In this document: in pieces, positions 4,572 to 30,048 of the stretch
Position numbering within the stretch: the stretch's first letter is position 1
Layout: each line of letters opens with the position of its first letter
Source: a virus
Strand: one strand, 5' to 3'
IMG/VR virus record: IMGVR_UViG_3300042879_004465
Location: 1-60,595 of that record
DNA length: 60,595 nt
Made by a program: the position numbers and the translations under genes
The notes under the pieces: model-generated
What the model was told of the DNA's origin: nothing
Databases searched by the model: none
What the model saw: only the letters and a program-made list of their open reading frames with translations

Positions 4572-4598
4572 ATTTAAAATAAATAAAATAGGTGACAT

Positions 4599-5207: not shown

Positions 5208-5237
5208 TAATCTTTAAAAAGGAGATATATTTTAATT

Positions 5238-5519
5238 ATGAAAACAGGTTTATTAAAATTTAAATACGGCGAAGAAATTATTTGTGAATACGAAAAAAAG
5301 GAAACCCATACACATATTAAAAATATGACTGCTATGATTGCTGTAGAAAATCATAATTGGCAACTGGTAACTTGGCTTCCTTACGCAAAGATTAGAGAAG
5401 GCATAGACATACCAAATTCTGAAATTTTATTTTTAAGTGATTTGAGTGAAGACATGGAAGAATATTATATTAAATGGAAAGAAGCTTTGGAAAAAAAGAG
5501 AGAAATAAGTTTTAAGTAA
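5238..5519 (+). CDS. Small Sm-like (LSm-fold) phage protein
   Basis: A 93-residue protein preceded by a strong AAGGAG at about 5219-5224, some 13 bases before ATG. It begins LLKFKYGEEIICEYE, then has a WLPYAKI segment, an acidic DLSEDMEEYY stretch and a C-terminal helix. The same order occurs in the N-terminal half of the 204-residue protein at 37694-38308 (VVKFTTGEEVVAIVQE). The pair looks like the Sm-like family known from cyanophages. Sm folds often bind RNA, but no RNA-binding evidence exists here. Paralogy is seen in the sequence; the fold is inferred from family memory. Confidence 0.55.
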   Translation: MKTGLLKFKYGEEIICEYEKKETHTHIKNMTAMIAVENHNWQLVTWLPYAKIREGIDIPNSEILFLSDLSEDMEEYYIKWKEALEKKREISFK

Positions 5520-5529
5520 AATATTTTCT

Positions 5530-5536
5530 CTAAATA
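5530..5536 (+). promoter_or_regulatory. Late promoter box CTAAATA
   Basis: CTAAATA ends eight bases before the ATG at 5545. Gene-55-type sigma factors of T4-like phages recognise TATAAATA or CTAAATA at about -10, so the transcript would start only a few bases before the gene. Confidence 0.55.
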
Positions 5537-5544
5537 TTTTTATA

Positions 5545-5826
5545 ATGTTTAGAGGAAAATATAAAAAATTAGACGCATCGGGCCTAAAAAAACAGTATCT
5601 CGCAGGAGATACTGTTTTATTTGAAGGAAATATTTACAAGGCAATAAAACAAACTGAACTTTCTCCCTTTAGAGATAAACAAAGTTGGCAATTGACAGGT
5701 TCAAATGTGATATATTCTTCGAATACCCCTCCTATATCGCCTACAACGGGACAATATTGGGAAAAAGATGGAAAGGTTTATGTCTACCACTATGATGGCA
5801 ATAATTATTCTTGGGCAGAGTTTTGA
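5545..5826 (+). CDS. Small protein with carbohydrate-binding-module-like motif
   Basis: A 93-residue protein. Residues 18-50 (YLAGDTVLFEGNIYKA followed by a conserved-looking W) resemble the CBM5/12 pattern of a strand, G-D-x-V, an aromatic Y-x-A and a Trp. Such modules occur on phage fibres and decoration proteins. A second half (GQYWEKDGKVYVYHYDG) is Tyr-rich and may be a further small beta domain. The last 22 bases overlap the convergent gene ending at 5805. A near-perfect terminator hairpin lies inside the coding region at 5585-5618. A virion decoration or fibre-tip role is a guess. Confidence 0.55.
   Translation: MFRGKYKKLDASGLKKQYLAGDTVLFEGNIYKAIKQTELSPFRDKQSWQLTGSNVIYSSNTPPISPTTGQYWEKDGKVYVYHYDGNNYSWAEF
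5585..5618 (-). terminator. Intrinsic terminator for leftward genes, inside a convergent gene
   Basis: A perfect 13-bp stem (5589-5601 with 5606-5618) closes a four-base loop. Read leftward it is followed by a run of seven T. It lies about 190 bases past the end of the leftward gene at 5805, so it can terminate that operon although it is within the coding sequence of the rightward 5545-5826 gene. Confidence 0.65.
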
Positions 5827-7118
5827 ATAACTATTTTTAAAATATTAACAACTTTTTTTTCCACTTTTAAATATATTACTTTAGGTGCGCTCAATTCTTT
5901 GATGTATATAAAAGAGCAACCATCGAAGCCGGGAACACCATTTAAAAAGAAGTATTCTGTCAGAGGGAGCGAACATTCATAGTCCAAATAAGGTGAAATT
6001 TTAGAAGAAACTAAAGAAGAATCCGATAAATCAAATTTTAAAATTGTGCTAATCCCAACACTATTGTAATAAACTTCTGATGTATTAGAGCCATCAACTA
6101 GGGTAACAGTAGCAAGCGATGTTGTAGATACTCCTTCTACTCCAGTACCAACAAAAACTCTTATTGTTTCTAACTTTATGTTGGAATAGTGATCGATGCT
6201 TAAAGAAAGACCGTTGTACGCATATGGATTAAAAAGATTTTCCGTATTGTTTATTCTCGCTGCACCATACCAATTAAAAGTGTGGGTCGGGTCATTTAAT
6301 TCTCTGCAATATTTTTGATAATAATTTTGATTGTTGTATATATCAATTATAGCTCCGGAAGAATTTAACTTGTTTATAATTCCATTTTGAATTTTAGACG
6401 TTGTTAAGGTAGTTAAATCCGGAACCCCACGCATATAAATGTTTATGTTGCTAGGGACAAAATATAAATTTTCATTTAAAATTGTTTCGCTTGGGTCTAT
6501 GTAAATTATTTCTGAATTATCATTTAATTTTATTGAAGACTTTATTTTTAATCTTCCGGAATTTAAAGATGCGCTTGATACTTCTAAAAATTCTTCAAAT
6601 CCATAATCGCTACCATATACTCCCAAAAAATTTAAATTTAATGGATCTTCTTTATTTAACTTTGCTTGAAAATATTGTGCTGTCACTCCACTAATTGCTG
6701 TTAAAACTGGCGGAGAACTAAAATTATAACTTTGATAAAAACCATCGGTAATAGAAGTAGAAAAAGTTACTCCTATTGCATCTATATAAGTATTGTAATT
6801 TCCCGTAACTCCATTTAAAGTATAAATTCCTGCAAAAGATTTTTGTTCTCCGGTTTCTTCTATGTAATAAGTTCCTCCTCCAATTGCGAATGTATTTCCA
6901 ATTGAAAGATTTCCAAAAAATTGTTTTAAAAACTTTAAATCAGAAGAATTGGAAGAAGAAGAATAATCTATAAAAAAACTAGAACCAGATTTTAAAATAT
7001 TTGGGCTTGTTTCCAATAAGCCTTTGGTAAAACAGGGATCTAATGTAGCTCCAGTAAAATTTGTGGCAAATAAACTTATATTTTTAACAACAGTTAAAGA
7101 TTTATTTGTATCTGTCAT
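5805..7118 (-). CDS. Putative fibre or virion surface protein
   Basis: A 437-residue protein rich in Ser, Asn, Thr, Tyr and Gly with few charged residues, as in beta-rich phage fibre proteins. No known domain was recognised. It follows the 306-residue gene one base downstream of that gene's stop, so the two form a leftward late operon from the promoter at 8060-8066. Its 3' end overlaps the convergent 5545-5826 gene by 22 bases. A structural role rests on composition and neighbours only. Confidence 0.5.
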   Translation of the reverse strand: MTDTNKSLTVVKNISLFATNFTGATLDPCFTKGLLETSPNILKSGSSFFIDYSSSSNSSDLKFLKQFFGNLSIGNTFAIGGGTYYIEETGEQKSFAGIYTLNGVTGNYNTYIDAIGVTFSTSITDGFYQSYNFSSPPVLTAISGVTAQYFQAKLNKEDPLNLNFLGVYGSDYGFEEFLEVSSASLNSGRLKIKSSIKLNDNSEIIYIDPSETILNENLYFVPSNINIYMRGVPDLTTLTTSKIQNGIINKLNSSGAIIDIYNNQNYYQKYCRELNDPTHTFNWYGAARINNTENLFNPYAYNGLSLSIDHYSNIKLETIRVFVGTGVEGVSTTSLATVTLVDGSNTSEVYYNSVGISTILKFDLSDSSLVSSKISPYLDYECSLPLTEYFFLNGVPGFDGCSFIYIKELSAPKVIYLKVEKKVVNILKIVIQNSAQE

Positions 7119-15861: not shown

Positions 15862-16655
15862 TGTCCAAAAAAATTACAATACTGGGAACAAATGTTCTCA
15901 AGGTTCAAACTGGAAATGCCGTATCAAATAGATTTGAATATATTTGCGCCAATCCAGAAATAACAAGTGGAAATTTGGAAGCTCCAGGTAGTTTGGATGA
16001 TTGTTATGCTTTCTTTCCTGAAATTTTAAATATAGCGAAAGCTTTGGGTGTAGGAAATAGTTATAGTGTTCCAGCTTTTTTTGGAATAAGCGGCGCTTCA
16101 TCTGGTATTTTTCCTTGCGGGCTGTCTGGAAGTTCTGGGATATCCGGAGGAGTTTCCGGTGGAATGCCTTTGATATTCAAGGAACCAGATAAGGAATGTC
16201 TAAAAATAGAAGATCTTTTGGGAAAAGAATGGATGGGATGTTTTTGGCCAGATCCTCTTGCAAACTTTAGTTGTGATTGTCCAGTTTATGGGGATATGTA
16301 TGAAAATTATTTAAAGTATAGATTGGGTTCTGCTACTTTCTGGAATACTCCATTGCAAGTTCCTATATGGAGGCAGGAATTTATAGAGTCGGTAAAAAGT
16401 TTAATAGAAATAACAGTAACTGGAAGTCTTTCGTATAGACCGGGAGATATCGTTTATATAAAAATTGACAATTTAACCGGATTGGCCTCAGGAGATCCAG
16501 AAATGGAAATGGACAAAAGCGCAAGAACAGGTTTTTATTATATAATGAGAGCAAAAAATGTTATTAAAAATGATGGTGGCCATACAACGATTTTATCGCT
16601 TACGCGATTTACAGAGGAAAATTTTTATCCAGATGTAGTGGTTTCTGAGGAATAA
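15861..16655 (+). CDS. Baseplate hub-associated protein
   Basis: A 264-residue protein, translationally coupled (TAATG) to the 770-residue gene and followed by gp25. Residues 75-105 are a Gly/Ser-rich linker (SGASSGIFPCGLSGSSG). The C-terminal third (SYRPGDIVYIKI...SARTGFYYIMRAKNVIKN then TTILSLTRF) resembles the end of gpD/gp27-type hub domains, where a G-x-Y-I...H...G-x-x-x-T-x-L-x-L-x-R stretch is common. The two genes may therefore be a split hub. No enzymatic motif was seen. Confidence 0.45.
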   Translation: MSKKITILGTNVLKVQTGNAVSNRFEYICANPEITSGNLEAPGSLDDCYAFFPEILNIAKALGVGNSYSVPAFFGISGASSGIFPCGLSGSSGISGGVSGGMPLIFKEPDKECLKIEDLLGKEWMGCFWPDPLANFSCDCPVYGDMYENYLKYRLGSATFWNTPLQVPIWRQEFIESVKSLIEITVTGSLSYRPGDIVYIKIDNLTGLASGDPEMEMDKSARTGFYYIMRAKNVIKNDGGHTTILSLTRFTEENFYPDVVVSEE

Positions 16656-16658
16656 TCT

Positions 16659-16666
16659 TATAAATA
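16659..16666 (+). promoter_or_regulatory. Late promoter box TATAAATA
   Basis: An exact T4-type late box, nine bases before the gp25 ATG at 16676. Confidence 0.6.
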
Positions 16667-16675
16667 TTCTTGACT

Positions 16676-17071
16676 ATGGAAAAAAAAGATTTTGACATTT
16701 TGCTTTCACCAATAAAAACTGCCAATCAAAAAAAGGATATTTCTTTTTTTATCGGAGTTTCATCGGTAGGACAAAAAATTCAAAATTTACTTTATACTGT
16801 GAAGGGGAATAGAGCCTTCATGTCAACTTTTGGTACAAATCTCCAAATATCCTTAAGTACATACAATAGCGGAAAAAGAGCAATTCTTCTCAGTTCCTTG
16901 AAATCAAGTATAGAAAATAAAATTAAAACATTAAAAAATGTGAATATTTCAATGAAAAATAGTTACGTGGCTTCAAATTATGTTGATGTCAAGGTTGTAT
17001 TTGATTACATGAGTCAAGATGGATTGAAGAAAAATAACCAAGTTACAGTCTCAATAAATATGAATACATGA
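16676..17071 (+). CDS. gp25: Baseplate wedge protein gp25
   Basis: A 131-residue homologue of T4 gp25 (132 residues), the lysozyme-like-fold wedge protein that starts sheath assembly. It begins MEKKDFDILLSP. RAFMSTFGTNLQISLSTYN corresponds to the conserved 'R...P.fG..l...lF' region, and the C-terminus is VDVKVVFDYMSQDGLK. I chose ATG at 16676 over an upstream TTG because of length and the promoter. It overlaps gp6 by four bases (ATGA). Confidence 0.75.
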   Translation: MEKKDFDILLSPIKTANQKKDISFFIGVSSVGQKIQNLLYTVKGNRAFMSTFGTNLQISLSTYNSGKRAILLSSLKSSIENKIKTLKNVNISMKNSYVASNYVDVKVVFDYMSQDGLKKNNQVTVSINMNT

Positions 17072-18183
17072 GCAATTACGATTATAACAATTTGAATGTT
17101 GGAAGTTTGGATTACGCTACCATTAAATCCAACCTGATATCATTCTTTAAAAGATATCCACAACTTGCAAATTTTGATTTTGACAACGAAGCATCTTCTA
17201 TAAATTTATTTTTAGATATTTTGGCTGCTAATACTGCATATAATGGTTACTATTTACATTCGGTTTTGACCAATTCCTTCCCATCGACGGCCACTTCCAA
17301 AAAAGCCATGATGATGAATGCTAGTTTGTACGGAGCATTCATCGAAAATACTATTTCTGCAAGATGTGTGGCTACTTTAAAAAATACAAGCTCTTCTGAA
17401 GTTCCTGCTTTGAGCACTTTTACAGGGACAAGAACAAATGGAAGCCCTTGTTTTTTTTATAATACGGAAGCTATTCCCGTTACGGAGGGTGATAACACCG
17501 TCGCAGTAGAAATGATTTCGGGTAAAGGGGTATATGGATTTGCTCAATTTGATCCTGAAAAATTATATCTGGAATTGCCTTTAAACTACGATCCTACGGC
17601 AATATTGTTCTTGAACAGAGAAGTAGTGGGGTCTACTTATACAGATGTCTCTTGGACCCAAGTAAATAATTTTAGCAATCAAGTTGTTGAGAGTCTTGGA
17701 GGAAAAGTATTCACCGTTTTAAACGGAAAAGATGGATACTACGTTACTACAAATATTCCCGGGGCAATAGCTCCTAGCAATTCTGTTACAATAAAAGCAG
17801 TAGACTCGGATGGTAGTTTATCAAATTCAGCTACAATACTGAGATCAAGAGATTATTCTGGAGTTACTGTAGTGTCTCATACTACTCCCTCCGGGGGAAG
17901 AGACAATGCAACAAAAGATTACATAAAAACCTTTATACCTTACGCATCAAATACAAAAGATCGTTTGGTAACTCAATCTGATTACTTGGATGGGATATAT
18001 CAATATATATTGAGCAATGGAGTAACTACAATACAAAAAGAAGATATATCTGTCACATCTCCATCGGTAGGACAAATAAAAATTTATGTTAATGGACTTT
18101 CTTCTGCTTTGAGAGAAAATTTGATGGTAAATTATTTGGCTACAAGAAAAATGGTTGGAATTTCTCTGACATACGGTCAATAA
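17068..18183 (+). CDS. gp6: Baseplate wedge protein gp6, short form
   Basis: A 371-residue gp6/gpJ-type protein. The N-terminal pattern (LDYATIKSNLISFFKRYPQLANFDF then NLFLDILAANTAYNGYYLHS) is diagnostic of T4 gp6. Middle parts carry the gpJ-like beta region, and the C-terminus (AYLVTQSDYLDGIYQYILSN-type, here RLVTQSDYLDG) is the conserved 'd+vtr.DY...i' motif. T4 gp6 has 660 residues, so this is a compact version nearer to P2 gpJ. gp6 dimers tie the wedges together around the hub. Confidence 0.82.
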   Translation: MSNYDYNNLNVGSLDYATIKSNLISFFKRYPQLANFDFDNEASSINLFLDILAANTAYNGYYLHSVLTNSFPSTATSKKAMMMNASLYGAFIENTISARCVATLKNTSSSEVPALSTFTGTRTNGSPCFFYNTEAIPVTEGDNTVAVEMISGKGVYGFAQFDPEKLYLELPLNYDPTAILFLNREVVGSTYTDVSWTQVNNFSNQVVESLGGKVFTVLNGKDGYYVTTNIPGAIAPSNSVTIKAVDSDGSLSNSATILRSRDYSGVTVVSHTTPSGGRDNATKDYIKTFIPYASNTKDRLVTQSDYLDGIYQYILSNGVTTIQKEDISVTSPSVGQIKIYVNGLSSALRENLMVNYLATRKMVGISLTYGQ

Positions 18184-18184
18184 C

Positions 18185-18805
18185 ATGCTAGTATTTTTCA
18201 ATAATAGTCCCGGAGCATCGACACCAGATTCTGTTGTCACGGGCATAAATCGCATTGTCGAACAAACATTATTGACTCTGCGATCTTTAAATCTTCCGGA
18301 AAAAAACTGGGATGGAGACAAAATCCAAGTTAAAAAACAATTGCCTAAATGGGTTCAAAACACTTATGATGAATATCCATCAAGAGCTCCGGTAGTAGAT
18401 TTTTTTATTAACTATTATCGTTGGATGTTTGATCTTGAAGAGGGATATGGATGTGGATTTTATCTAGAAAATTTAAGAAATTTATCAAATGTTCCTGATA
18501 AATTTTTACAAGGATATGCCGATATTTTATTTGCCGGGGAGTTGGATTTGGATGTGTACCCAGAATTAAAAAATAATTTTAGAAAATGTTTATTAACATA
18601 TCATAGAGATTATGTGAAAATAAAGGGTACGCCCGATGGAATGCGATTTATTTTAAAATCATTATTTGGAGCAACGGTAGCAGAAGTTAGCACTCAATAT
18701 GCCACTAACATCAAAATAATTACTGATATGGATTCAAATTATCAAAATTTATTTAAGTTAATAGCTTGTCCATTTTCATTTAATGTATCATTTGTTTCAC
18801 CATGA
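18185..18805 (+). CDS. Minimal gp7 / tail protein I-like wedge protein
   Basis: A 206-residue protein. Its core (NVPDKFLQGYADILFAGEL then YHRDYVKIKGTPDGMRFIL, KSLFG) matches the 'Y..KGt..g.r.llr.lFG' motif of phage tail protein I (P2 gpI) and of the central part of T4 gp7. T4 gp7 has 1,032 residues, so the outer arms would be missing. It directly follows gp6, as gpI follows gpJ in P2-type phages. Family assignment is good; calling it the gp7 equivalent is inference. Confidence 0.65.
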   Translation: MLVFFNNSPGASTPDSVVTGINRIVEQTLLTLRSLNLPEKNWDGDKIQVKKQLPKWVQNTYDEYPSRAPVVDFFINYYRWMFDLEEGYGCGFYLENLRNLSNVPDKFLQGYADILFAGELDLDVYPELKNNFRKCLLTYHRDYVKIKGTPDGMRFILKSLFGATVAEVSTQYATNIKIITDMDSNYQNLFKLIACPFSFNVSFVSP

Positions 18806-19269
18806 TTAATTTTTTTGAAAAATGCATGAACTTTGCCATGTCTTTGGCATCCAAGGGATTCACTGGGAAAAAAGTTTTGCCAGAGGCAAAAAAACTAAGA
18901 GCGTTGTCCTGTTTTGGAAATGAAGATATATCCCCTTGTCCCCATTTACTAAAAAGCAAACATTTTAAAACTCATTATTGCGGTGCCTGTGGATGCGGGG
19001 ACAAACCCCATACCCAGTTGACAATAGATGGGGAAAAATACGGAAAATTAGATTATCCTTATTTGATTTGTCCATTGAGCATGCCCGGATTTTCCAATTA
19101 TTCTCCAGCAAGCCCAAAAGAAGTGGCAGAAAACACAAGAAAGTCTCAGATAGAAATTTATGATATTATGAGACTTCAAAATATAAAAGTAACTTCTCCA
19201 GAACCAACTGAGGAAGAATATCAAATTTTTCAAAAATTATCAAAATTAGGCAAATCCCCATCAGCCTAA
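18802..19269 (+). CDS. Conserved Cys-rich putative zinc-binding protein
   Basis: A 155-residue protein with conserved-looking metal ligands: C37, C46, H48, C60, C63, C65, H70 and C90 (THYCGACGCGDKPHTQ, LICPLSMPGFSNY). Similar proteins of unknown function occur near baseplate and neck genes in large T4-like environmental phages, as far as I remember. The N-terminal 25 residues form a helix. It overlaps the gp7-like gene by four bases and ends just before the gp13 late promoter. Confidence 0.6.
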   Translation: MINFFEKCMNFAMSLASKGFTGKKVLPEAKKLRALSCFGNEDISPCPHLLKSKHFKTHYCGACGCGDKPHTQLTIDGEKYGKLDYPYLICPLSMPGFSNYSPASPKEVAENTRKSQIEIYDIMRLQNIKVTSPEPTEEEYQIFQKLSKLGKSPSA

Positions 19270-19272
19270 ATA
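19266..19272 (+). promoter_or_regulatory. Late promoter box CTAAATA
   Basis: CTAAATA overlapping the stop codon of the preceding gene, nine bases before the gp13 ATG. Confidence 0.62.
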
Positions 19273-19281
19273 ATTTTTGAA

Positions 19282-20082
19282 ATGGAACCAACAAACAAAG
19301 ACGAATTTATAGCCTATTGCAGAAGAGCTTTAGGGGAACCCGTAATTCAGGTAAACGTCGGGGCAACCCAAGCGGACGATCGTCTTACGGACTGCTTAAA
19401 TTATCTCACAGAAAAACATTTTGATTTCGTTCATAGGGCATTATTTTCTTATCAAATAACACAAAATGACATAACTCGCCAATATATTGATACGGCTACT
19501 CTCGGAGATGCTTTAGGTGCAACAGGCGGGTGGCCGAATGGCACCGATATATTGACAATTAGCAAGGTATATCCAATTACCTCGACCGTTGGAGATTACA
19601 TCTTTGACTTAAGATATCAATTGTCCATGCAGGATTTCTTTGGCATTTTCTTCAACCAAGGAATTGCCCCATACGGAGCTCTTGCAAATTATGAAATGGC
19701 AAGAAGCTATTTGTCTACAATTGAGTATACTTTTGCGTATCCTTGCTCTTATACATTCTCAAAGGCAACTCAGCGCCTTTTCTTGGAACTTTCAAAGGAC
19801 AGATTAAAGGTGGGAAACTATATTTTGCTTGAGGCTTATGTCGGTATCGACGTAGATCAATATCCAAGAATTTGGAGAGATAGAATATTCAAAAGATATT
19901 ACATTGCCATGTTGAAAAAACAATGGGCTCAGAATTTAATGAAATTTGCAAATGTACCATTGACGGGAGGAGCATCAATAAATGCGCCTGCTCTCATGGC
20001 AGATGCTTTAAGGGAAATACAAGAAATAGAAGATAAAATAACTCAAATGTACGAGCCGCCTCCTGACATGCAAATAGGATAA
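19282..20082 (+). CDS. gp13: Neck protein gp13
   Basis: A 266-residue homologue of T4 gp13 (309 residues), which with gp14 closes the filled head and forms the tail-joining neck. It begins TNKDEFIAYCRRALGEPVIQVNVGATQADDRLTDCL across residues 3-38, the typical gp13 start. It has EAYVGIDVDQYPRIWRDRI then MLKKQWAQNLMKF, matching the conserved 'd....v.nd.w...y..A..K.qWG.NL.KF' segment. It is followed after one base by gp14. Confidence 0.88.
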   Translation: MEPTNKDEFIAYCRRALGEPVIQVNVGATQADDRLTDCLNYLTEKHFDFVHRALFSYQITQNDITRQYIDTATLGDALGATGGWPNGTDILTISKVYPITSTVGDYIFDLRYQLSMQDFFGIFFNQGIAPYGALANYEMARSYLSTIEYTFAYPCSYTFSKATQRLFLELSKDRLKVGNYILLEAYVGIDVDQYPRIWRDRIFKRYYIAMLKKQWAQNLMKFANVPLTGGASINAPALMADALREIQEIEDKITQMYEPPPDMQIG

Positions 20083-20083
20083 G

Positions 20084-20989
20084 ATGACAACTAATCCATA
20101 TTTTAATCAAGACGATCCTGGGCAACAAACCCTAATTGAGGATATCACGGTTGAGCTGATTCAAGGAACCGGGAGAGATATAGTATATGTTCCCCGTCAA
20201 TTCGTCAACATTGATAAAATATTTGGAGAAGACATTGCATCTAATTTCAGTGATTCTTATGTTATAGAAGCTTATGTAGAATCTTTCAGGGGATTTGACG
20301 GAACCGATATTGTTAATCAATTCGGCATCGAAGTAAAAGATAAACTTACTTTGGTTATGTCGAAAAGAAGATTTGAGGAGGAAATTACTGCATCAGTTCC
20401 TACGATAACAAGGCCAAGAGAAGGGGATTTAATATACTTTCCTTTGTCAAAAAGCCTTTTTGAGATAAACTTCGTAGAGCATGAAAATCCGTTTTATCCA
20501 ATTGGCAAAAGATATACTTACATGTTGACTTGTGAAATGTTTACATACAGTATGGAGAGAATTGCTACCGGAAACACGGCAATAGACGAAGTATACGATA
20601 CTTCATACAGAACTTTTTACGACATGCTTCTTCCCGGGCCGAGTGGCGCAACATATTTCCACGAAGGCCAATATGTACAACAAACAGGAGGTTCTGGCGG
20701 ATTGGGTCTCATATCCAACTGGAATGGAAACGCAAATGTTCTCACCATCAACATTCTTTCCGGAACATTCAGCCCAGCATTCGCTTTCCAAGTTCTGGGA
20801 GACACCGGAGGGGTATATCCAACTGTCGGTGCTACTTTCACTTCAATCGTGGCGAATCCCAACAAGTATCCTTCATACGGCACAAGCAAGACCCTCAAAG
20901 GAAACAACGAAGACATCGAGCAAGAAAGATTCTCCGACAACGTTGTGTCCTTCGATGAAAACGATCCATTCTCGGAGGGCAACTACTGA
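20084..20989 (+). CDS. gp14: Neck protein gp14
   Basis: A 301-residue homologue of T4 gp14 (256 residues). Features are a G-x-D-I-V-Y-V-P-R start near residue 30, IFGEDIASNF, a FRGFDGTDIVNQFG strand, SKRRFEEEI, then PREGDLIYFPLSKSLFEI and a FEIxxVExExPFYxxGxxYxYxLxC-type stretch. The C-terminal 100 residues are Gly-rich and may be an extra beta module. It overlaps gp15 by one base (TGATG). gp13, gp14 and gp15 appear to be one late operon. Confidence 0.88.
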   Translation: MTTNPYFNQDDPGQQTLIEDITVELIQGTGRDIVYVPRQFVNIDKIFGEDIASNFSDSYVIEAYVESFRGFDGTDIVNQFGIEVKDKLTLVMSKRRFEEEITASVPTITRPREGDLIYFPLSKSLFEINFVEHENPFYPIGKRYTYMLTCEMFTYSMERIATGNTAIDEVYDTSYRTFYDMLLPGPSGATYFHEGQYVQQTGGSGGLGLISNWNGNANVLTINILSGTFSPAFAFQVLGDTGGVYPTVGATFTSIVANPNKYPSYGTSKTLKGNNEDIEQERFSDNVVSFDENDPFSEGNY

Positions 20990-22479
20990 TGTTTGGATCA
21001 TATTACTATGGGGAATATTTAAGAAAAGTTGTAATAGGGTTTGGAACTTTATTCAATAATATTTACGTGGAAACTCCCGACAACGGAGTTAACAAGCAAG
21101 TTCGTGTTCCATTGACTTATGCCCCGAAAGAAAAATTTATAAGAAGATTGCTTGAAGAGTCTTCTATTTCCACTGATACAAAGGTAGGAATACGATTACC
21201 TCAACTAAGCTTTGCGATAAGCCAAGTTGCTGTCGATTCTTCAAGAAGAAGAAACAAGGTCAACAGAGAGATTTATGGAGTAGATGGTTTTTTAGGAAAA
21301 CAAACTTTTGTAGAAGTTCCAATAAACATAAATTTTAACTTGTTTATGTACACCCGTCACATAAACAATACTTTGCAGATAACTGAACAAATTATTCCAT
21401 ACTTTAATCCAGAGTTTAACATAAAAATAAACTTTGGAAACAATAGAGATGATATTACAATTCCTTTGGTGATGATCAATGGAATAAACATCAATGAAAA
21501 ATACGATGGAAATTTTGGAGACAGAAGAATAAACATTTCTAGCATTGGTTTTGTCGCAAAAGCGTACATGTTTAGTCCAGCACAGCCAGTCAGTTTAATT
21601 CCAATAGTAGAAAATTTTGATTTGGATGTTGATGTTGATGTTGATGTTTTTCCTGAGCCACCGCCTAGTCAGTCTTTCCCCAATCCTCCGAGTGGACTGT
21701 CCGTTCTTAGTTTCACAGGAACGGGTGCTACACTTGGATGGACGGACGATGCTGGATCTTTCGGTGAAGATGGCTTCAAGATTTACTACTATGAGGCAGG
21801 AAGCGTTCCTCCAGTCGTTTCTGATTTCTTGCTCATCAGCGGAAACACCTACGTACTCGGAGCAACTGCCCCTGCATTGGAAGGCATTGGGAATGTATCT
21901 CAATTCATTGGAAGTTTGAACCAAGGAGAAACGTATTCTTTCGTTGTTACTTCTTACATAGATGCAGGAAGTTCCGGATATGCAGGACCAGTAAGCATTT
22001 TTACGCCGGGGCCTCCAGCTACTCCAACAGCATTGTTCGTGTCGAGCTTTACTGGCACCGGAGCCACTTTGGGTTGGGTAGATCAAGCATCGGTGCCAAC
22101 AGAAACCCAATTCAAGATTTATTATTACGAAACCGGAAGTGTTCCTCCAGTTTCATCGGACTTCTTGCTCATCAGCGGAAACACCTACGTACTCGGAGCG
22201 ACTTATCCGGCTCAGGCTGGAACGGGCAGCGTAACAGGTTTCATAGGGAACCTAAACGACGGGGAAACATATTCGTTCGTAGTTACTTCGTTCAACGCCG
22301 TGGGAAGTTCCGGATACGCAGGACCAGTAAGCATCTTTACCCCGGGCCCGCCGGATACTCCAACAGGATTAAGAATCGTAAGCTTCACTGGCACGGGAGC
22401 AACTCTGGCTTGGATTGATTCGGAGAGTGCTCCAATTGAAACTGAATTCGTAATTTACGTATACAATCATCTATATTAA
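20989..22479 (+). CDS. gp15: Tail completion protein gp15 fused to fibronectin-III repeats
   Basis: A 496-residue protein. Residues 1-200 match T4 gp15, the terminator that caps the sheath and joins tail to head (MFGSYYYGEYLRKVVIGFG, VRVPLTYAPKEKF, ITEQIIPYFNPEFN). A DV-repeat and Pro linker (211-228) leads to fibronectin-III repeats at about 231-340 and 343-452. A third begins at 456 but stops after 41 residues (EFVIYVYNHLY), half-way through the fold. Repeats 1 and 2 share a 38-base identical DNA stretch. FN3 on virion proteins is thought to aid surface binding. The third repeat is broken; see the next gene. Confidence 0.85.
   Translation: MFGSYYYGEYLRKVVIGFGTLFNNIYVETPDNGVNKQVRVPLTYAPKEKFIRRLLEESSISTDTKVGIRLPQLSFAISQVAVDSSRRRNKVNREIYGVDGFLGKQTFVEVPININFNLFMYTRHINNTLQITEQIIPYFNPEFNIKINFGNNRDDITIPLVMINGININEKYDGNFGDRRINISSIGFVAKAYMFSPAQPVSLIPIVENFDLDVDVDVDVFPEPPPSQSFPNPPSGLSVLSFTGTGATLGWTDDAGSFGEDGFKIYYYEAGSVPPVVSDFLLISGNTYVLGATAPALEGIGNVSQFIGSLNQGETYSFVVTSYIDAGSSGYAGPVSIFTPGPPATPTALFVSSFTGTGATLGWVDQASVPTETQFKIYYYETGSVPPVSSDFLLISGNTYVLGATYPAQAGTGSVTGFIGNLNDGETYSFVVTSFNAVGSSGYAGPVSIFTPGPPDTPTGLRIVSFTGTGATLAWIDSESAPIETEFVIYVYNHLY
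21826..22199 (+). repeat. FN3-coding direct repeat
   Basis: Two exact 38-base copies (21826-21863 and 22162-22199) lie at the same place in FN3 repeats 1 and 2 of gp15, 336 bases apart. That spacing equals one whole FN3 unit, so this is a recent tandem duplication or homogenisation. Confidence 0.9.
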
Positions 22480-22488
22480 AGGCAAAAT

Positions 22489-23883
22489 ATGTCACACATC
22501 GTAAACTACAATAAAAATACACACGATTTATATTTGTATAACGCAGATCCTATCATAGATCGACAAAATCCTTTGAATAATACTTATGAAATGCCGATAG
22601 GATTTAATCCAAATTTTTGGTTAAATCAAGATGAATTTGGCTTTACTGCTTTTAATTTAGATTTTACTGGAGTTGCATTAAGATTTAGAGGTGGGAGTAG
22701 ATGGCAATCAGAAAATAACGCTCCAAATATTGTGCAATTTCATGGATTATCTGGCTTCGGTTTTGGGCAGAGTAATAATGCAGCATTGATGCTTGATGTA
22801 TTTAATAATGGTCTTCCTATAGGAAATTTTTCTATAGTTGAAAATTATAATTTTTGGAACAATATAGGAATACCTGCAGTTTTAATTAGCCCACAACATG
22901 TTTTAGCCGGTGGGCACATGTTTTTAAGCGAGGCTGCTTTTTCGGTTCCAGAATATGATCCAAATCCTTGGAGAGGAACTACTTTTGCAGAATTTGTATT
23001 TTTAGGGACAAATGGAGTAACCTACTCTAGAATTGGTAGATTAAAAATAGCTTTTGGTTCTATGCTTGGGTTCGGACCGCAACCACAACTTGAGGAAACG
23101 GTTGAGCCTTTTTATACTTATAATATTTTTCCTGAATTGGGATTAAATGAGGAAAATTTTTCTCTACTGGCAGGAGACATGCATTTAATTGAGTTGGATA
23201 CTCCTTTTACGGAAGAAGAATTGCAATTTGTTAAAATTTATAAAATAATAAATTATGCATCTTCCCAACTCTCATCTAACAGTAGTTTTACTATAACTTT
23301 TAATCCTCAGAGTATAATTACAGTACGAAATGCAAATGGAACTGAAAGTTTTTTTGATGAAAATTTATTTGACACAACTTGGTCTGGTGTTCCTTTTTGG
23401 GGATATGAAAATGTAGATGCTACAGGTATTATAAGTAGTCAAGCAAATATTTCTGGTTTTACTCCTGTATATGGAGATAGTTTAGCCGTACTTTTAAAAT
23501 ATCATCCGGGATTACAAGAATTGTGTTTTTATAAATTTATTAATGGAGATGGTCGGTGGACGATATCAAGAGGCTCTAAAAACGATCCAGAAAGTGCCGC
23601 ATATAAAGAATCCAAAATTTGGAATGCAGTCAAAAATTATATACAGCAAACTTGTGGGTATACCATAACATTAATAGATAACTTTACAGAAACTGATAAT
23701 ATTGAAATTGATGGATTGGTATACACAAAAGGAGTTACGCTTTCTGCAAATGCAGGCATAGGCGGAATGACATATTTTTACGGAGGGCTGACTTCCGGGA
23801 ACACTTATTCATTCTTAGTAACTGCCAGAAATGCAATAGGATATTCCGGTTACGCCGGTCCTACAGGATTCAGAACTCCTTAA
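22489..23883 (+). CDS. Trypsin-like (S1-fold) virion protein ending in half an FN3 domain
   Basis: A 464-residue protein. Residues 130-340 show an S1 serine-protease layout: ISPQHVLAGGHM (candidate H143), LLAGDMHLIELDTPF (D230) and VYGDSLAVLLKY (S331). A helix with CGYTITLID (389-397) follows, as seen after such domains in other phage and bacterial proteins. The Ser motif reads GDSLA rather than GDSGG, so activity is uncertain. The last 55 residues (SGNTYSFLVTARNAIGYSG, YAGP) equal the second half of the FN3 repeats of gp15. It lies between gp15 and gp16, with AAAGG before its ATG. It could process or decorate the virion, or be an inactive binding domain. Confidence 0.6.
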   Translation: MSHIVNYNKNTHDLYLYNADPIIDRQNPLNNTYEMPIGFNPNFWLNQDEFGFTAFNLDFTGVALRFRGGSRWQSENNAPNIVQFHGLSGFGFGQSNNAALMLDVFNNGLPIGNFSIVENYNFWNNIGIPAVLISPQHVLAGGHMFLSEAAFSVPEYDPNPWRGTTFAEFVFLGTNGVTYSRIGRLKIAFGSMLGFGPQPQLEETVEPFYTYNIFPELGLNEENFSLLAGDMHLIELDTPFTEEELQFVKIYKIINYASSQLSSNSSFTITFNPQSIITVRNANGTESFFDENLFDTTWSGVPFWGYENVDATGIISSQANISGFTPVYGDSLAVLLKYHPGLQELCFYKFINGDGRWTISRGSKNDPESAAYKESKIWNAVKNYIQQTCGYTITLIDNFTETDNIEIDGLVYTKGVTLSANAGIGGMTYFYGGLTSGNTYSFLVTARNAIGYSGYAGPTGFRTP

Positions 23884-23895
23884 TGGAATTAAATA

Positions 23896-24342
23896 ATGGA
23901 AGACGTGAATAAAAATCTTGAATCGTTTTTTGAAATAGAATCCTCGAATCAAAAAATAGAAACCACAAAAACAGCAGGAACGACATCTTCTGCAACTCAG
24001 GATTACGAGTTCGCAAGAAACAACCTAAGATCCCTAATTTCAAACGGATCTCTTGGATTGGAAGGAATAATGAAGGTTGCCTTGGAATCCGACAGTCCAA
24101 GGGCATACGAAGTCTTGGCAAATACGATCAAGACTTTGGCTGAGATAAACGTGAACTTGATGGATGTTTCCGCCAAGTTTGCAGAGACCAACAAAGTGAA
24201 CGTAAAGAACACCACGAACAATTCCATATTCGTTGGGACAACCAAAGATTTGCAGAAATTGCTAAAGAAAGAAAACAATTTTGTTGAAGGTGAATTAAAT
24301 GAACAACCAGCAAAGCGGCTATCGAGCCAACCCGAATCTTAA
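23896..24342 (+). CDS. gp16: Terminase small subunit gp16
   Basis: A 148-residue homologue of T4 gp16 (164 residues), which forms rings that regulate the packaging motor. DYEFARNNLRSLISNGSLGLEGIMKVA (residues 36-62) followed by SPRAYEVLANTIKTLAEINVNLMD is the characteristic helical core 'D...vR.nl..li..g...l......A..s..pRayEVl...i...'. It overlaps gp17 by 44 bases, as in T4. Confidence 0.85.
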   Translation: MEDVNKNLESFFEIESSNQKIETTKTAGTTSSATQDYEFARNNLRSLISNGSLGLEGIMKVALESDSPRAYEVLANTIKTLAEINVNLMDVSAKFAETNKVNVKNTTNNSIFVGTTKDLQKLLKKENNFVEGELNEQPAKRLSSQPES

Positions 24343-25960
24343 AGCTCCGGGAATAAATCTAAACTATACCCAAGAGCAACTTGAAGATTACATAAAGTCT
24401 GCAAAAGATCCGGTTCACTTCATAGAGAAACACGTAAAAATTGTCACTCTGAACTCTGGTCTTTCTCCGTTTCTTTTGTATGATTACCAAAAAAGATTCA
24501 TAAACGAGATTCACAACAACAGGTTCGTAATCTCTAAATTTCCTCGTCAAAGCGGAAAATCCAGCTGCGTGCTCGGATACATAAATCACTACATAAATTT
24601 TCAACCAGACGTGAAAGTGGCGATTCTCGCAAACAAGCAAAAGACGGCAACCGATCTATTCTCAAGATTGCAAATTGCATACGAAAATCTTCCTCAATAT
24701 TTGCAGCAGGGAGTATTGGAATGGAACAAGACTTCCTTGAAACTTGAGAACGGATCTTCCGTTGTCTGTGCTGCAACATCTGCATCAGCAATCCGCGGTG
24801 GTTCTTACAATCTTTTGCTTTTGGACGAGTTTGCATATCTTCCGCAGAACATCGCAGAAGAATTCTATGCATCTACTTATCCGACAATTTCTTCGGGTAC
24901 AACCTCAAAAATCGTAATAGTATCGACGCCACATGGGCTGAACCACTATTACAATCTGTGGGTGAACGCAAAAAGACAGCCCGGCCATCCATTGAAGAAC
25001 AAGTTTGTCCCGGTGGAGATCAGTTGGAGAGAAGTTCCGATGTATCCGGGCGGGCCTTTAAGAGGGGAAGATTGGAAGCAAGAAACAATAGCAAATACAA
25101 GCGAGGAACAATTCAATCAAGAATTTGAATGTTCTTTCATCGGGTCTTCGAATACTCTTGTGTCCTCCTCTAAACTCAATATTCTTGCCCCGAATGACCC
25201 AGTCGAGCAGACAATGGATGGTATCAGAATTTTTGAGCAACCGGATGAGAACAAGACATATTTCTTGTTGGCCGACGTTTCAAGGGGTCAAGGAAACGAC
25301 TACTCCGCTTTTACGGTCGTAGAAGGCTCACAGATGCCCTATAACGTCGTTGCGACCTACCAGAACAATACCATAAGCCCCTTTGCCTATCCGACCGTTA
25401 TAAAGACAATAGCGGAAAAATACAACAATGCCTATGTCATGGTTGAGGTGAATGATGTAGGGGGCCAAGTATGTTCCATTCTTTACAACGATCTTCAATA
25501 CGAGAACATGTTGATGACCCAAACTAGAGGAGTCAAAGGTCAAGTTTTGTCCCAAGGATTCGCCAGAGGAAAGTCCGAAATGGGCATTCGAACCACTGCC
25601 CAAACCAAAAAAATTGGCTGTGCCGTATTGAAGAGATTGGTGGAAGAAGACAAACTTCTGCTGAATGACGACAGAATCATAAGAGAGCTGATGTCTTTCG
25701 TATCAAAATCAAATAGTTTCCGGGCAGAGGATAGCCAAACGGACGACTTGGTAATGTGTTTGGTATTCTTTTCTTGGTTAACGAGACAGGAATATTTTAC
25801 GGATTTGATAGAAACAGCAAAAAATAAATATTCGCAGAACGATTCAATTTCTCCAGAAGATGACAACGTATTATTCATGATGGGAAACAAAGAAAAAAAT
25901 TCAGATGAAATCCCTCCAGATGGCTTATCGGACGGAAATTGCGTATGGTTTTCGGGCTAA
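24299..25960 (+). CDS. gp17: Terminase large subunit gp17
   Basis: A 553-residue homologue of T4 gp17 (610 residues), the DNA-packaging ATPase and nuclease. The ATPase has Walker A FPRQSGKSS (82-89) and Walker B LLLLDE (172-177). The C-terminal nuclease domain begins near LLADVSRGQGNDYS, with the first catalytic Asp, and has a later VEVNDVGG and DDLVMCLVF. AAGG before ATG. The nearest late boxes at its 3' end belong to the next gene. Confidence 0.95.
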   Translation: MNNQQSGYRANPNLKAPGINLNYTQEQLEDYIKSAKDPVHFIEKHVKIVTLNSGLSPFLLYDYQKRFINEIHNNRFVISKFPRQSGKSSCVLGYINHYINFQPDVKVAILANKQKTATDLFSRLQIAYENLPQYLQQGVLEWNKTSLKLENGSSVVCAATSASAIRGGSYNLLLLDEFAYLPQNIAEEFYASTYPTISSGTTSKIVIVSTPHGLNHYYNLWVNAKRQPGHPLKNKFVPVEISWREVPMYPGGPLRGEDWKQETIANTSEEQFNQEFECSFIGSSNTLVSSSKLNILAPNDPVEQTMDGIRIFEQPDENKTYFLLADVSRGQGNDYSAFTVVEGSQMPYNVVATYQNNTISPFAYPTVIKTIAEKYNNAYVMVEVNDVGGQVCSILYNDLQYENMLMTQTRGVKGQVLSQGFARGKSEMGIRTTAQTKKIGCAVLKRLVEEDKLLLNDDRIIRELMSFVSKSNSFRAEDSQTDDLVMCLVFFSWLTRQEYFTDLIETAKNKYSQNDSISPEDDNVLFMMGNKEKNSDEIPPDGLSDGNCVWFSG

Positions 25961-25974
25961 ATAACTTCTAAATA
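25957..25974 (+). promoter_or_regulatory. Two late promoter boxes CTAAATA
   Basis: CTAAATA at 25957-25963 overlaps the gp17 stop, and a second copy lies at 25968-25974, 18 bases before the ATG of the first sheath gene. Two boxes 11 bases apart suggest strong or staggered initiation. Confidence 0.65.
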
Positions 25975-25992
25975 TCATAGAAAGACAAAAAT

Positions 25993-27981
25993 ATGGGATT
26001 AGAACCTCCACAAATCACTTTAGGCAACGGGACACTTAACGCTTTTAATTTTTTTCCAACTCCAGCGCAAGTTACCGAACCGAGCCAAGATAGAAATAAA
26101 AGATTTGTCTGTGGATTTGTGATGGGGTCTGCTAATCCTAGTAGTGGTAGCGGAACGGGGTGTGGTTTGTTTGCAGCAATTAATAAAATTAGTGACCCAT
26201 TTGGCAGCGGTGACGTTGCTGGACTTAATATACTTGCTTCTACTACAGAATTTTTTAACCCACATACTCTTGGGGGAGTCATAATTAATGCATATGTAAT
26301 TGATTCTATATCTTCCTTAAAAACAATACTTAATAAAATTAATAACAATATAAATTTAGGTTTGTGGAACATCGATCCTTCAAGAACAGTTTCGCCCGGG
26401 CCGAATCCAACAAATCAAGCCCTTTATACCTCTTTGACTGAAAATTTATATTTTGGCGCGTATACAGGAAAAAACAATGTAGATCCAAATCAGGATGGAT
26501 TTGCAGATCAAACAGCTGATTGGATGGGAAATGGAATAACCGCAGCTTTTGGATTTTCTTCTGTTTCTACTCCTGACACCGATTTAGCGCAAATAATAGG
26601 AAACGATGGAGCAGCCTCAAGGGCCGGAGTAGAATTATATGCTTTGCTTCATTTTTTAAAATACGGAGGAGTGGCTGTTATTGCGCCTAGATATCATGAA
26701 TTATCCCTTATAAAAGACGGTTTTAGATATCCTAGTAGTTCTGGCTTTCCTTTAGATCCAGAACGTAACAACATTGGCGCTCTATTCAATAATAGAGGAT
26801 TAGATGCAATCGTTACTTTAGAAGGCGGATCAATGTTAACTGGGGTAGGGCTCACCGGAAATCAAACAAATGATGCAATGATTTATGGTGGAGCATATTA
26901 CGAAGGGGCCGGAGCGCTAGGTCAAGTATACAACAGAACGCAAGGATTATTGCCGGAGCATTTGGGAAATACTTTTGCCGGTCTTGTTTATAAAGGAAAC
27001 ATATTTTCTTCCATAGTGACCGATATACTTTCACCATCTTATCTGCAGATCTTCCATGCCGGGCTTTCCGGAACATCTTTTGGATATCAACAAGAATTCG
27101 GAGCTGATCCAGCTACAGTAGGAGTCTTTAGACATCCATCAACCGATGGTCGGCCTTTCAATTTCAGAAAAAAAACTACTAGTATTTCATATCCCGGAAA
27201 TCCAAATGCATCAGTGACTGGTCTAACAGGAGGCATACTCAATTCAAATCAATTGAACAGTTTGGTATGCGTCGGCGGAAGAACCCTGACAAAAACTTGG
27301 TGGACAACTACAGGAACTCCACAGGGAGCAGTAGTGGGCGGAGGCGCAGACGGATCATATTGGATTCCGAAATTGGATGTAATTGAATTTGCCGGGTCAA
27401 TGAATACCGCTCTGCAGCAAACTACCGGAAACTACATGCTTTCTTCGAACATCGGAGGATCCATTCCCGTCTCAGACGGTGTTCCCAATATGGCTCAATT
27501 AATAACAAGCACTAGATATTCCTCTACGTCTTTTGAATTGTTGGAGGATTTAGCCGCAAAAAGAATAAACACAATTTGCTCTAATTCGCCTACCCATTTC
27601 CCGACAGACTATGTCGGCGCAACCGGTGCAATAGGAACACCAAATACCACTCTATTGAATAGAAGATATGCTCAAGCCATACATGGCTATGCATATCAAA
27701 CGGCTTTCAGAGTTTTGGACGAAATAGTAGGCACTAACGTAGTAAACAATTCGGCAACACGCGCACAAGTGGTAACCGCAATTACTGATGCTTATAACAG
27801 TTCTAATTTCAATTCATATCTTAGAGAAAATTATGTAATTACATGCGATACTACCAACAACAGCAATAACTCAACAATGCTTACTGTAGGCATTACCGTT
27901 AAGCCCGCTGTTTTCACCATAAATAGCCCAACAGGAGGGCAGCTAATATCTGACTTCAATATTATCATAACTCTATCATAA
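25993..27981 (+). CDS. gp18: Tail sheath protein gp18, copy A
   Basis: A 662-residue protein, the length of T4 gp18 (659). Sheath-type features are YGGVAVIAPRYHEL near residue 225, LPEHLGNTF, NRRYAQAIHGYAYQ near 555 and a C-terminal ITCDTTNNSNNS plus LTVGITVKPAVF strand. The C-terminal motif matches the sheath domain that links neighbouring subunits. The paralogue at 28066-30048 shares the whole architecture. Position between gp17 and the tail-tube genes is as in T4. A terminator separates it from copy B. Confidence 0.78.
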   Translation: MGLEPPQITLGNGTLNAFNFFPTPAQVTEPSQDRNKRFVCGFVMGSANPSSGSGTGCGLFAAINKISDPFGSGDVAGLNILASTTEFFNPHTLGGVIINAYVIDSISSLKTILNKINNNINLGLWNIDPSRTVSPGPNPTNQALYTSLTENLYFGAYTGKNNVDPNQDGFADQTADWMGNGITAAFGFSSVSTPDTDLAQIIGNDGAASRAGVELYALLHFLKYGGVAVIAPRYHELSLIKDGFRYPSSSGFPLDPERNNIGALFNNRGLDAIVTLEGGSMLTGVGLTGNQTNDAMIYGGAYYEGAGALGQVYNRTQGLLPEHLGNTFAGLVYKGNIFSSIVTDILSPSYLQIFHAGLSGTSFGYQQEFGADPATVGVFRHPSTDGRPFNFRKKTTSISYPGNPNASVTGLTGGILNSNQLNSLVCVGGRTLTKTWWTTTGTPQGAVVGGGADGSYWIPKLDVIEFAGSMNTALQQTTGNYMLSSNIGGSIPVSDGVPNMAQLITSTRYSSTSFELLEDLAAKRINTICSNSPTHFPTDYVGATGAIGTPNTTLLNRRYAQAIHGYAYQTAFRVLDEIVGTNVVNNSATRAQVVTAITDAYNSSNFNSYLRENYVITCDTTNNSNNSTMLTVGITVKPAVFTINSPTGGQLISDFNIIITLS

Positions 27982-28000
27982 TAATTTTTTAATTAAATTT

Positions 28001-28033
28001 ATCTCCCTCAATTTTTGGGGGAGATATTTTTTT
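28001..28033 (+). terminator. Intrinsic terminator between the two sheath genes
   Basis: A 7-bp stem (28001-28007 with 28019-28025), then a T-rich run. It ends the transcript of sheath A before a fresh late promoter for sheath B, so the two copies can be expressed at different levels. Confidence 0.75.
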
Positions 28034-28046
28034 AAAAATAAACGTC

Positions 28047-28053
28047 CTAAATA
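28047..28053 (+). promoter_or_regulatory. Late promoter box CTAAATA
   Basis: CTAAATA 12 bases before the ATG of sheath copy B. Confidence 0.65.
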
Positions 28054-28065
28054 TTAGAAGAAACT

Positions 28066-30048
28066 ATGGGAATTAGCGATATAGACCCCGGCACAAATTC
28101 AAATGCCATTCCATCGGCATTTGATCATTTTCCTATGCCTGAAGGTGCCCCTCCTTTAAATCAAACTGGAGAAAATAAATTAGTTTGCGGTTTTGTATTA
28201 GGAACTAGTACCACCACTGGAACAACGGGATGTGGTTTATATGCAATTTTAAGAGCTGCATACGACAACTTAGTAAATACTGCTGCTATTGCTAGCGGCG
28301 ATTCAAATAATAATTTATTTTTTAACAATCTAGACTGTTTTGCATTGCCCCCCGGAGAACTTCAAACAAAAAATCCAATTTTTATTATTTCTGATCTCTT
28401 TACATTAAGAAGTTCAATGAATGAACTACATAATAATATCAATTATTTGATATTCAGAGTTGATTATAATAGAGTGGATCCGAGCGGCAATTCTACATTT
28501 CCGCTTCAAGGGCAATTTTTAGCAGCTACCAATCCTAATTCAGTAAGACAATACAATTTTTATACAAATTATTTGTTTTATGGATCTTATACCGGAGCAG
28601 AAAACGTAAATCCCGGACAACCATTTCTAGGAACAGACCTGCCACTTGGGGATCTCATGGGTAATGGGATAACCGCCGCGTTTTCTTTTGCGAATCCAAA
28701 AGGCGATGGAGTTTTTAATCTCGGAGATGGATTTATATCAAGAGCAGGCTTAGAATTATTTGCTCTTTATAATTACTTAAAATATGGAGGAATTGCGGTA
28801 ATAGCATCCTCATATGAAGATTTATACAAGATTAAAGATAAAGAAATATTAAGTCCTGATTATTTGGATCCTGAACAGGTTGGGACAAGATACTCAATAG
28901 TACCAAATGGACTAGATTGCATATTGACGCTAGATAATACTTCCATGTTGACTGGCGTAAATAACACCAATAATTCAAACGATGATGGAATGGTCTATGG
29001 AGGAGCTTATTATGGAGCAAATACAACAGACGGCTTGACAATTTATAATTTAACTCAAGGTTTGTTGCCGGAATATCTAGGAAATAGTTTTTGCGGAAAT
29101 GGTTTTAGGGGAAATATATTTTCTTCCATTCTTGAACAAGAAAAAAATCCAGATACGTTGATGATTTTTCATGCGGGACTTTCGGGAGTTTCTTTTGCAT
29201 ATTCTCAAGACTTTTTGGATCAACCAGAACTTGGATTTCGGCATCCATCTACGGACGGAATTCAATTTTTATACAGACAAAGAGTTACGAATAGCAATTT
29301 TAATTCAAACCCCGGACTTACTCTTGGTACTTTAAATACAAATCAATTGCAACGCCTCTGTTGTGTCCCAGGCGTGAATAATTATAGATTTTACTGGACA
29401 GTAGATGGCGTACAAAATGGTACGGTAGTTGGAGGAGGGCCGGATGGAACTCTTTGGGTTCCTTGCTTGCACGTCGTTGAATTTGTGGGGCTTTTGAATT
29501 GGGTAAAGGACGTTCCATTTTCTGGTCAAATTTTTGAATCAAATATAGGTCAAGAATACAGAGTTCCAATTGTAGGATTTTTGCCTTTACCACCAAATCA
29601 AAAAGTTTCAAGTACTCAATATTCTGTATCGGGAACCGAATATAATACTCTCATTCCGAAAAGATTGAATGTATTGAGTCAGCAGGGATATTTTCCGACA
29701 GACTTGGTTGGAGCAACGGGCTCTTCGTTCGTGATAAGAAACAGAAGAAATGCTGAAACTCTTTATTCATTCGCGTACAAAAAAGCACTTGAAGTGGTCA
29801 ATCTTTTCATAGGGTCCAATTTCATAAATAATACGGAAACCAGAAACAGAGTAATAGAGGACATACAGATAGAATATGAAACAGTTTCCCTTAACAGGTA
29901 TTTGAGAAATCCTTATACAATAATATGCAACACAAGCAATAATACGCCAGGAAGTAGCAAATTGACAGTAGAAGTAACGATAACGCCAAAAATAACTCAA
30001 TTTCCGGGGGGCGGAATTCCCCTGAGATTCAAGTTAACAGGAGGATAA
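28066..30048 (+). CDS. gp18: Tail sheath protein gp18, copy B
   Basis: A 660-residue paralogue of the preceding gene. Shared blocks include MGNGITAAFSF, YLKYGGIAVIAS, LTGVNNTNNSNDDGMVYGGAYY, LTQGLLPEYLGNSF, IFHAGLSGVSF, FRHPSTDG, DLVGATGSS and ICNTSNNTPGS. The copies differ in the N-terminal insertion loops. Both look intact and full length, so neither is a pseudogene. Copy B has its own late promoter and is followed closely by two tail-tube genes. Whether both are in one virion or are alternatives is unknown. Confidence 0.78.
   Translation: MGISDIDPGTNSNAIPSAFDHFPMPEGAPPLNQTGENKLVCGFVLGTSTTTGTTGCGLYAILRAAYDNLVNTAAIASGDSNNNLFFNNLDCFALPPGELQTKNPIFIISDLFTLRSSMNELHNNINYLIFRVDYNRVDPSGNSTFPLQGQFLAATNPNSVRQYNFYTNYLFYGSYTGAENVNPGQPFLGTDLPLGDLMGNGITAAFSFANPKGDGVFNLGDGFISRAGLELFALYNYLKYGGIAVIASSYEDLYKIKDKEILSPDYLDPEQVGTRYSIVPNGLDCILTLDNTSMLTGVNNTNNSNDDGMVYGGAYYGANTTDGLTIYNLTQGLLPEYLGNSFCGNGFRGNIFSSILEQEKNPDTLMIFHAGLSGVSFAYSQDFLDQPELGFRHPSTDGIQFLYRQRVTNSNFNSNPGLTLGTLNTNQLQRLCCVPGVNNYRFYWTVDGVQNGTVVGGGPDGTLWVPCLHVVEFVGLLNWVKDVPFSGQIFESNIGQEYRVPIVGFLPLPPNQKVSSTQYSVSGTEYNTLIPKRLNVLSQQGYFPTDLVGATGSSFVIRNRRNAETLYSFAYKKALEVVNLFIGSNFINNTETRNRVIEDIQIEYETVSLNRYLRNPYTIICNTSNNTPGSSKLTVEVTITPKITQFPGGGIPLRFKLTGG

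Follow-up and report, generated by a model that had tools for sequence, protein, structure and literature searches.

T4-type phage genes that are split by inserted endonuclease ORFs yield polypeptides whose reassembly has been shown or inferred, examples being Aeh1 nrdA/mobE, phage 25 gene 43 and T4 topoisomerase 39/60 (PMC2988022). At the protein level, a fibronectin type III (FN3) monobody divided in its CD loop regains its fold when the two peptides are combined and still binds its target, as recounted in PMC11666773 (citing Dutta et al. 2005), where the laboratory-split domain is also described as having markedly lower stability than the intact one. T4 gp15 assembles as a hexameric ring (six copies) in the neck, in contact with the fibritin collar (PMC3004832).

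The locus described here resembles the T4-type genes split by homing endonucleases in that an inserted ORF divides a coding region into two polypeptides, but, unlike them, it has an insert for which searches of Pfam, PHROGs and NCBIfam return no nuclease and which does not stand alone but continues in frame into the second half; the divided gene, moreover, is a structural (neck) gene cut within an accessory FN3 module. The cut appears to fall after strand C and to separate strands ABC from the remaining strands, as in the laboratory-split FN3, whose fragments fold together without a covalent link according to PMC11666773. Unlike that engineered system, as it is presented there, the arrangement reported here would be natural and would carry a large cargo on the second fragment.

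gp15 and its C-terminal FN3 tail

The window, i.e. the whole stretch of DNA that was analyzed, is a 60.6-kb virus record (60,595 nucleotides) of a T4-like phage from environmental DNA. PHROG matches reveal a T4-type gene order with a head-tail adaptor, a head-closure protein (gp14-like), gp15, ORF2 and the small and large terminase subunits, followed downstream by tail tube, portal, prohead protease, scaffold and major head protein, in this order. The neighbor order head-tail adaptor, gp14, gp15, gp16, gp17, likewise based on PHROGs, is T4-type and fits that of the T4 tail sheath stabilizer gp15. All features of the locus given below are on the plus strand.

The gp15 gene (20989–22479) encodes 496 residues ending in EFVIYVYNHLY. 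In Pfam the protein matches T4-gp15_tss (PF16724) with 172 bits and fn3 with 42.2 bits over the whole protein, the latter in two stretches; it is a T4-type tail-sheath terminator carrying a new C-terminal tail. The core, corresponding to the T4-like stabilizer/terminator domain (20989–21600; PF16724, PHROG 227), is 75% identical to gp15 of two relatives, L017 and L018. It is followed by a linker (21601–21678) with a PEPPP hinge, at which the gp15 proteins of relatives stop with a short acidic tail; GATGTT repeats at 21627–21650 encode DVDVDVDV in this linker, immediately ahead of the FN3 array. The tail itself consists of two complete modules, FN3-1 (21679–22014) and FN3-2 (22015–22347), which share 75% amino acid identity in the alignment and score 25.0 and 21.6 bits against PF00041, i.e. 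at and below the cut-off of 25 bits, respectively, and of the first 40 residues of a third (FN3-3a, 22348–22467; strands A, B and C, with the strand-B Trp at W475), delimited by alignment with FN3-1 and FN3-2 and by the score of the joined domain; HLY and a TAA stop follow. Two complete FN3 modules and half of a third is also what an earlier, sequence-only reading of this DNA had proposed, and the PF00041 scores and the terminal EFVIYVYNHLY bear it out.

Two IMG/VR contigs from two other metagenomes, L001 and L002, have the same architecture as the window; the three contigs together contain two alleles of the insert. Other relatives are organized differently. In L014–L018, whose gp16 is 71% identical, gp15 comprises 215–226 residues with a short acidic tail and is directly followed by the terminase small subunit gene (gp16; 23896–24342 in the window, PHROG 445). 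More generally, relatives with 64–75% identical gp15 stop before any FN3, with gp16 as the next gene where it was read, and further, more distant T4-like contigs also have a gp15 without FN3. The gp15 tail is comparable to the FN3/Ig-like modules of phage tail proteins, which are accessory β-sandwich modules appended to a virion protein; unlike them it has no counterpart among the matches listed: a gp15 homologue occurs in 1,974 phage records, and every listed match stops short of the FN3 tail and of 80% coverage of the query. The FN3 pair alone, used as query in the phage record collection, gave no match and no split module was found. A search for an uninterrupted FN3-3 with peptides from both halves recovered only L001, L002 and a distant FN3 in the contig L003; the longer, uninterrupted gp15 implied by the sequence-only reading was thus not encountered, and the relatives instead have no FN3 tail at all. 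With FN3 and insert both missing from these relatives, the two appear to be specific to this lineage. Since no uninterrupted third FN3 was found, the state before insertion is a reconstruction in which we infer that the tail came first and the insert second; both could instead have arrived together. L003, a contig of another virus, contains a 1531-aa ORF (1815–6410) in which one FN3 is seemingly interrupted before strand F by another FN3-like module and in which the C-terminal segment seems Hint/intein-like.

One FN3 module in two halves

The last 66 residues of ORF2 correspond to the second half of the module (FN3-3b, 23683–23880; strands C', E, F and G, with the tyrosine-corner Tyr at ORF2 residue 440) and are in frame with the insert. 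Scored singly against PF00041, FN3-3a has no match and FN3-3b reaches 13.2 bits; joined, they reach 25.3 bits (E 1.8e-5, model positions 1–80), to be compared with 25.0 bits for FN3-1 and 21.6 bits for FN3-2, the two intact modules. In tblastn a single HSP spans the joined 106 residues of FN3-3 against FN3-2 (51% identity, E 3e-27), and FN3-1, FN3-2 and the joined FN3-3 align end to end, the sole gap being one of 5 residues at the junction. The two halves are complementary, with zero overlap and only these 5 residues missing, and the hallmark core residues are distributed over separate polypeptides, the strand-B Trp in gp15 and the tyrosine corner in ORF2. Because the joined score matches those of the intact modules and the single scores do not, we regard FN3-3a and FN3-3b as one domain and not as a chance resemblance. 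The proposal that the next gene ends with the missing half of the module is therefore upheld: by PF00041 the third module is complete in neither protein, ORF2 included, and only when the halves are joined, and the same arrangement in L001 and L002 comes with matching, not unrelated, halves.

Judged from the alignment with the FN3 fold, the break probably lies just after strand C, in the C–C' (CD) loop. A six-frame profile search starts its match to FN3-3b about 10 residues earlier, within GYTITLIDN of the insert, which suggests that the last residues of the insert may imitate strand C.

That an ORF was inserted into the third FN3, as the sequence-only reading had supposed, is supported by the complementary halves, by the AT-rich insert and by the strong divergence of its two alleles where the flanks are nearly identical, and we hold the insertion itself, as read from these sequence features, to be highly probable. 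The same reading had offered recombination of FN3 modules as an alternative, in which ORF2 existed beforehand as a gene of its own that ended in an FN3, and an exchange within FN3 truncated both genes. The FN3 modules of gp15 are indeed tandem repeats that are 75% identical, and within FN3-3b L002 has the state of the window at three neighboring synonymous sites where L001 differs, a patch that looks like a short exchange tract (or, conceivably, an assembly chimera), so that exchange within FN3 may occur. However, it would take a coincidence for two truncations to meet at the same loop without any overlap and with only 5 residues missing, and FN3-3a and FN3-3b have diverged from FN3-2 to a similar extent (62% in a hand count, 50% in tblastn). 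Recombination is accordingly less likely than insertion, and we consider it quite improbable.

The junction (22468–22488) is identical to the base in all three contigs. It comprises HLY, the TAA stop (22477–22479) and a Shine-Dalgarno-like AAAGG (22478–22482) that overlaps the stop and lies 6 nt upstream of the ORF2 ATG. An assembly artefact behind the split was considered and is judged unlikely, because the three contigs have the same junctions. The genes share their reading frame, separated by TAA and 9 nt, with 1500 nt between the two starts in both alleles, and reading through the TAA gives an uninterrupted frame of 511 residues from FN3-3a to FN3-3b. These features would suit a single chain produced by stop read-through, splicing or ribosome bypassing, in which the trypsin-like domain sits in an FN3 loop. 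Such a chain is very improbable in our estimation: TAA is normally an efficient terminator, the Shine-Dalgarno-like AAAGG precedes a proper ATG, and Rfam gave no credible match to a self-splicing intron (group I/II) or structured RNA at either the gathering or a relaxed threshold. A U4atac match in the same search (E 0.97) was rejected as noise.

The inserted ORF and its two alleles

ORF2 (22489–23883) encodes 464 residues ending in SGNTYSFLVTARNAIGYSGYAGPTGFRTP. The inserted part (22489–23682) is AT-rich (GC3 0.19) and foreign-looking in its composition. The sequence-only reading had called the protein trypsin-like, a description that is weakly supported. ORF2 has no match in Pfam or NCBIfam, including the S1 family models PF00089 and PF13365, and no significant one in PHROGs; a PDB sequence search with the ORF2 profile gave no match, a search for relatives in IMG/VR, phage records and GTDB genomes returned none beyond L001 and L002, and a scan for the motif GFNPNFW yielded, outside these two contigs, nothing but chance matches. 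Profile–profile alignment (hhalign) of ORF2 against an S1 profile, built from ten S1 proteases and bovine trypsin, gives a weak match (E 3e-4, probability 39.5%). A permissive alignment covers insert residues ~111–395 over 221 columns, ends at the helix-like KNYIQQT and places the conserved GGH, DMxLxExDTPF and GDS on or beside the S1 His, Asp and Ser, with the His about one residue off. Its score was reached by 0 of 300 column shuffles and by 3 of 200 block shuffles. The candidate triad, conserved in both alleles, consists of His143 (22915–22917), Asp230 (23176–23178) and Ser331 (23479–23481), the last in GDSL where the S1 motif is GDSGGP. ORF2 may thus be termed weakly trypsin-like, and we keep the label protease as weakly supported because the Pfam trypsin models have no match. 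Classical S1 proteases seem rare in phages: bovine trypsin matched 2 of 50,697 phage records at E 1, one of them weakly. AlphaFold is uninformative both for ORF2, modeled with its single homologue as input, and for the read-through chain, with pLDDT values of 28 and 30, probably owing to the lack of sequences.

From 15905 to 28518 (12.6 kb), L001 and L002 are 97–98% identical to the window by blastn, and the sole stretch that cannot be aligned at the DNA level is 22627–23668, within the insert. The identity profile drops from the first codons of ORF2 and returns at the first codon of FN3-3b. The insert proteins of the two alleles share 44% amino acid identity (dS 1.26, dN 0.55), and dS in the flanking genes is 0.033 for gp15 and 0.198 for gp17. 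Near-identical flanks around a diverged insert show that the flanks have a recent common history and the insert does not, and the occurrence of different inserts between the same FN3 halves marks the trypsin-like part as a swappable cassette inside one FN3. In both alleles the ORF2 frame stays open into FN3-3b.

These comparisons bear on whether the halves still function as protein. After a genuine insertion they might no longer pair and persist as passive remnants, ORF2 being free-standing with an inherited C-terminal tail; an isolated half FN3 would be expected to be unstable, and in a population sample as small and recent as this one remnants have perhaps not yet decayed. Against this, all differences from L001 within the module are synonymous (synonymous/non-synonymous 1/0 in FN3-3a and 4/0 in FN3-3b, with 7/0 in FN3-1 and FN3-2 together), the neutral chance for FN3-3b being ~(50/198)^4 = 0.004 by our own rough estimate, and FN3-3b keeps its frame after both inserts, which share only 44% identity. 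The synonymous changes provide modest evidence that FN3-3b is under selection at the protein level and not decaying, and we consider the remnant explanation unlikely.

Separately, a patch of gp17 (25122–25241) is ~80% identical to L001 between flanks of 97–99%, with mostly synonymous differences, and is probably a recombination tract.

A possible split-FN3 tether on the neck

By analogy with the position of the T4 gp15 ring in the neck, the FN3 tail at the C-terminus could project from it. Taking this position together with the precedents of split FN3 and split T4-type genes, we judge it most likely that FN3-3a and FN3-3b pair and tether ORF2 to gp15. Granted the insertion, pairing is likely on these analogies; the whole proposal, that an ORF was inserted in the C–C' loop of FN3-3 and that the halves reassemble non-covalently and attach the trypsin-like protein to the gp15 ring, we regard as moderately probable.

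In this proposal, for which we infer the order of events, the pairing and the location on the virion, the gp15 of an ancestor phage, which forms the hexameric tail terminator of the neck, would have been extended at its C-terminus by three FN3 modules. A trypsin-like ORF would then have landed in the C–C' loop of the third module, giving gp15 a stop there and fusing the 3' end of ORF2 in frame to the rest of FN3-3, which would leave strands A–C on gp15 and strands C'–G on the ORF2 protein. Both proteins would be made side by side from one message, with the stop overlapping the ribosome-binding site and a gap of 9 nt, and the two halves would fold together non-covalently, forming a clamp through which the neck could bear as many as six copies of the trypsin-like protein. 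In other members of this phage population, the same two halves enclose a strongly diverged allele. More tentatively, and with somewhat less than even expectation, we suggest that this natural clamp may act as plug and socket for exchangeable protease-like cargo on the neck ring, with the cargo swapped by phage populations and plug and socket kept constant.

If the halves do pair, the split-FN3 tether of laboratory engineering would have a natural counterpart, used for attaching exchangeable cargo to a virion. The case would then illustrate how a phage can acquire a new virion protein when an accessory module takes up an insertion and the essential neck protein is left unharmed, and a ready-made protein tether would be on offer. 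The locus also carries gene splitting in T4-type phages beyond enzymes, which homing endonucleases have split, to a structural gene, for which the splitting ORF has no nuclease match.

Two further observations concern other parts of the window. At the tail-sheath position there are two successive ORFs of ~660 residues (25993–27981 and 28066–30048), neither with a PHROG match and the first also without a Pfam match. Near the beginning of the window, a 1499-aa ORF (72–4571) contains RCC1-like repeats, which are unusual in a phage; it matches PF25390 with E 4e-7, below the cut-off of that model, and PF13540 just above its cut-off.
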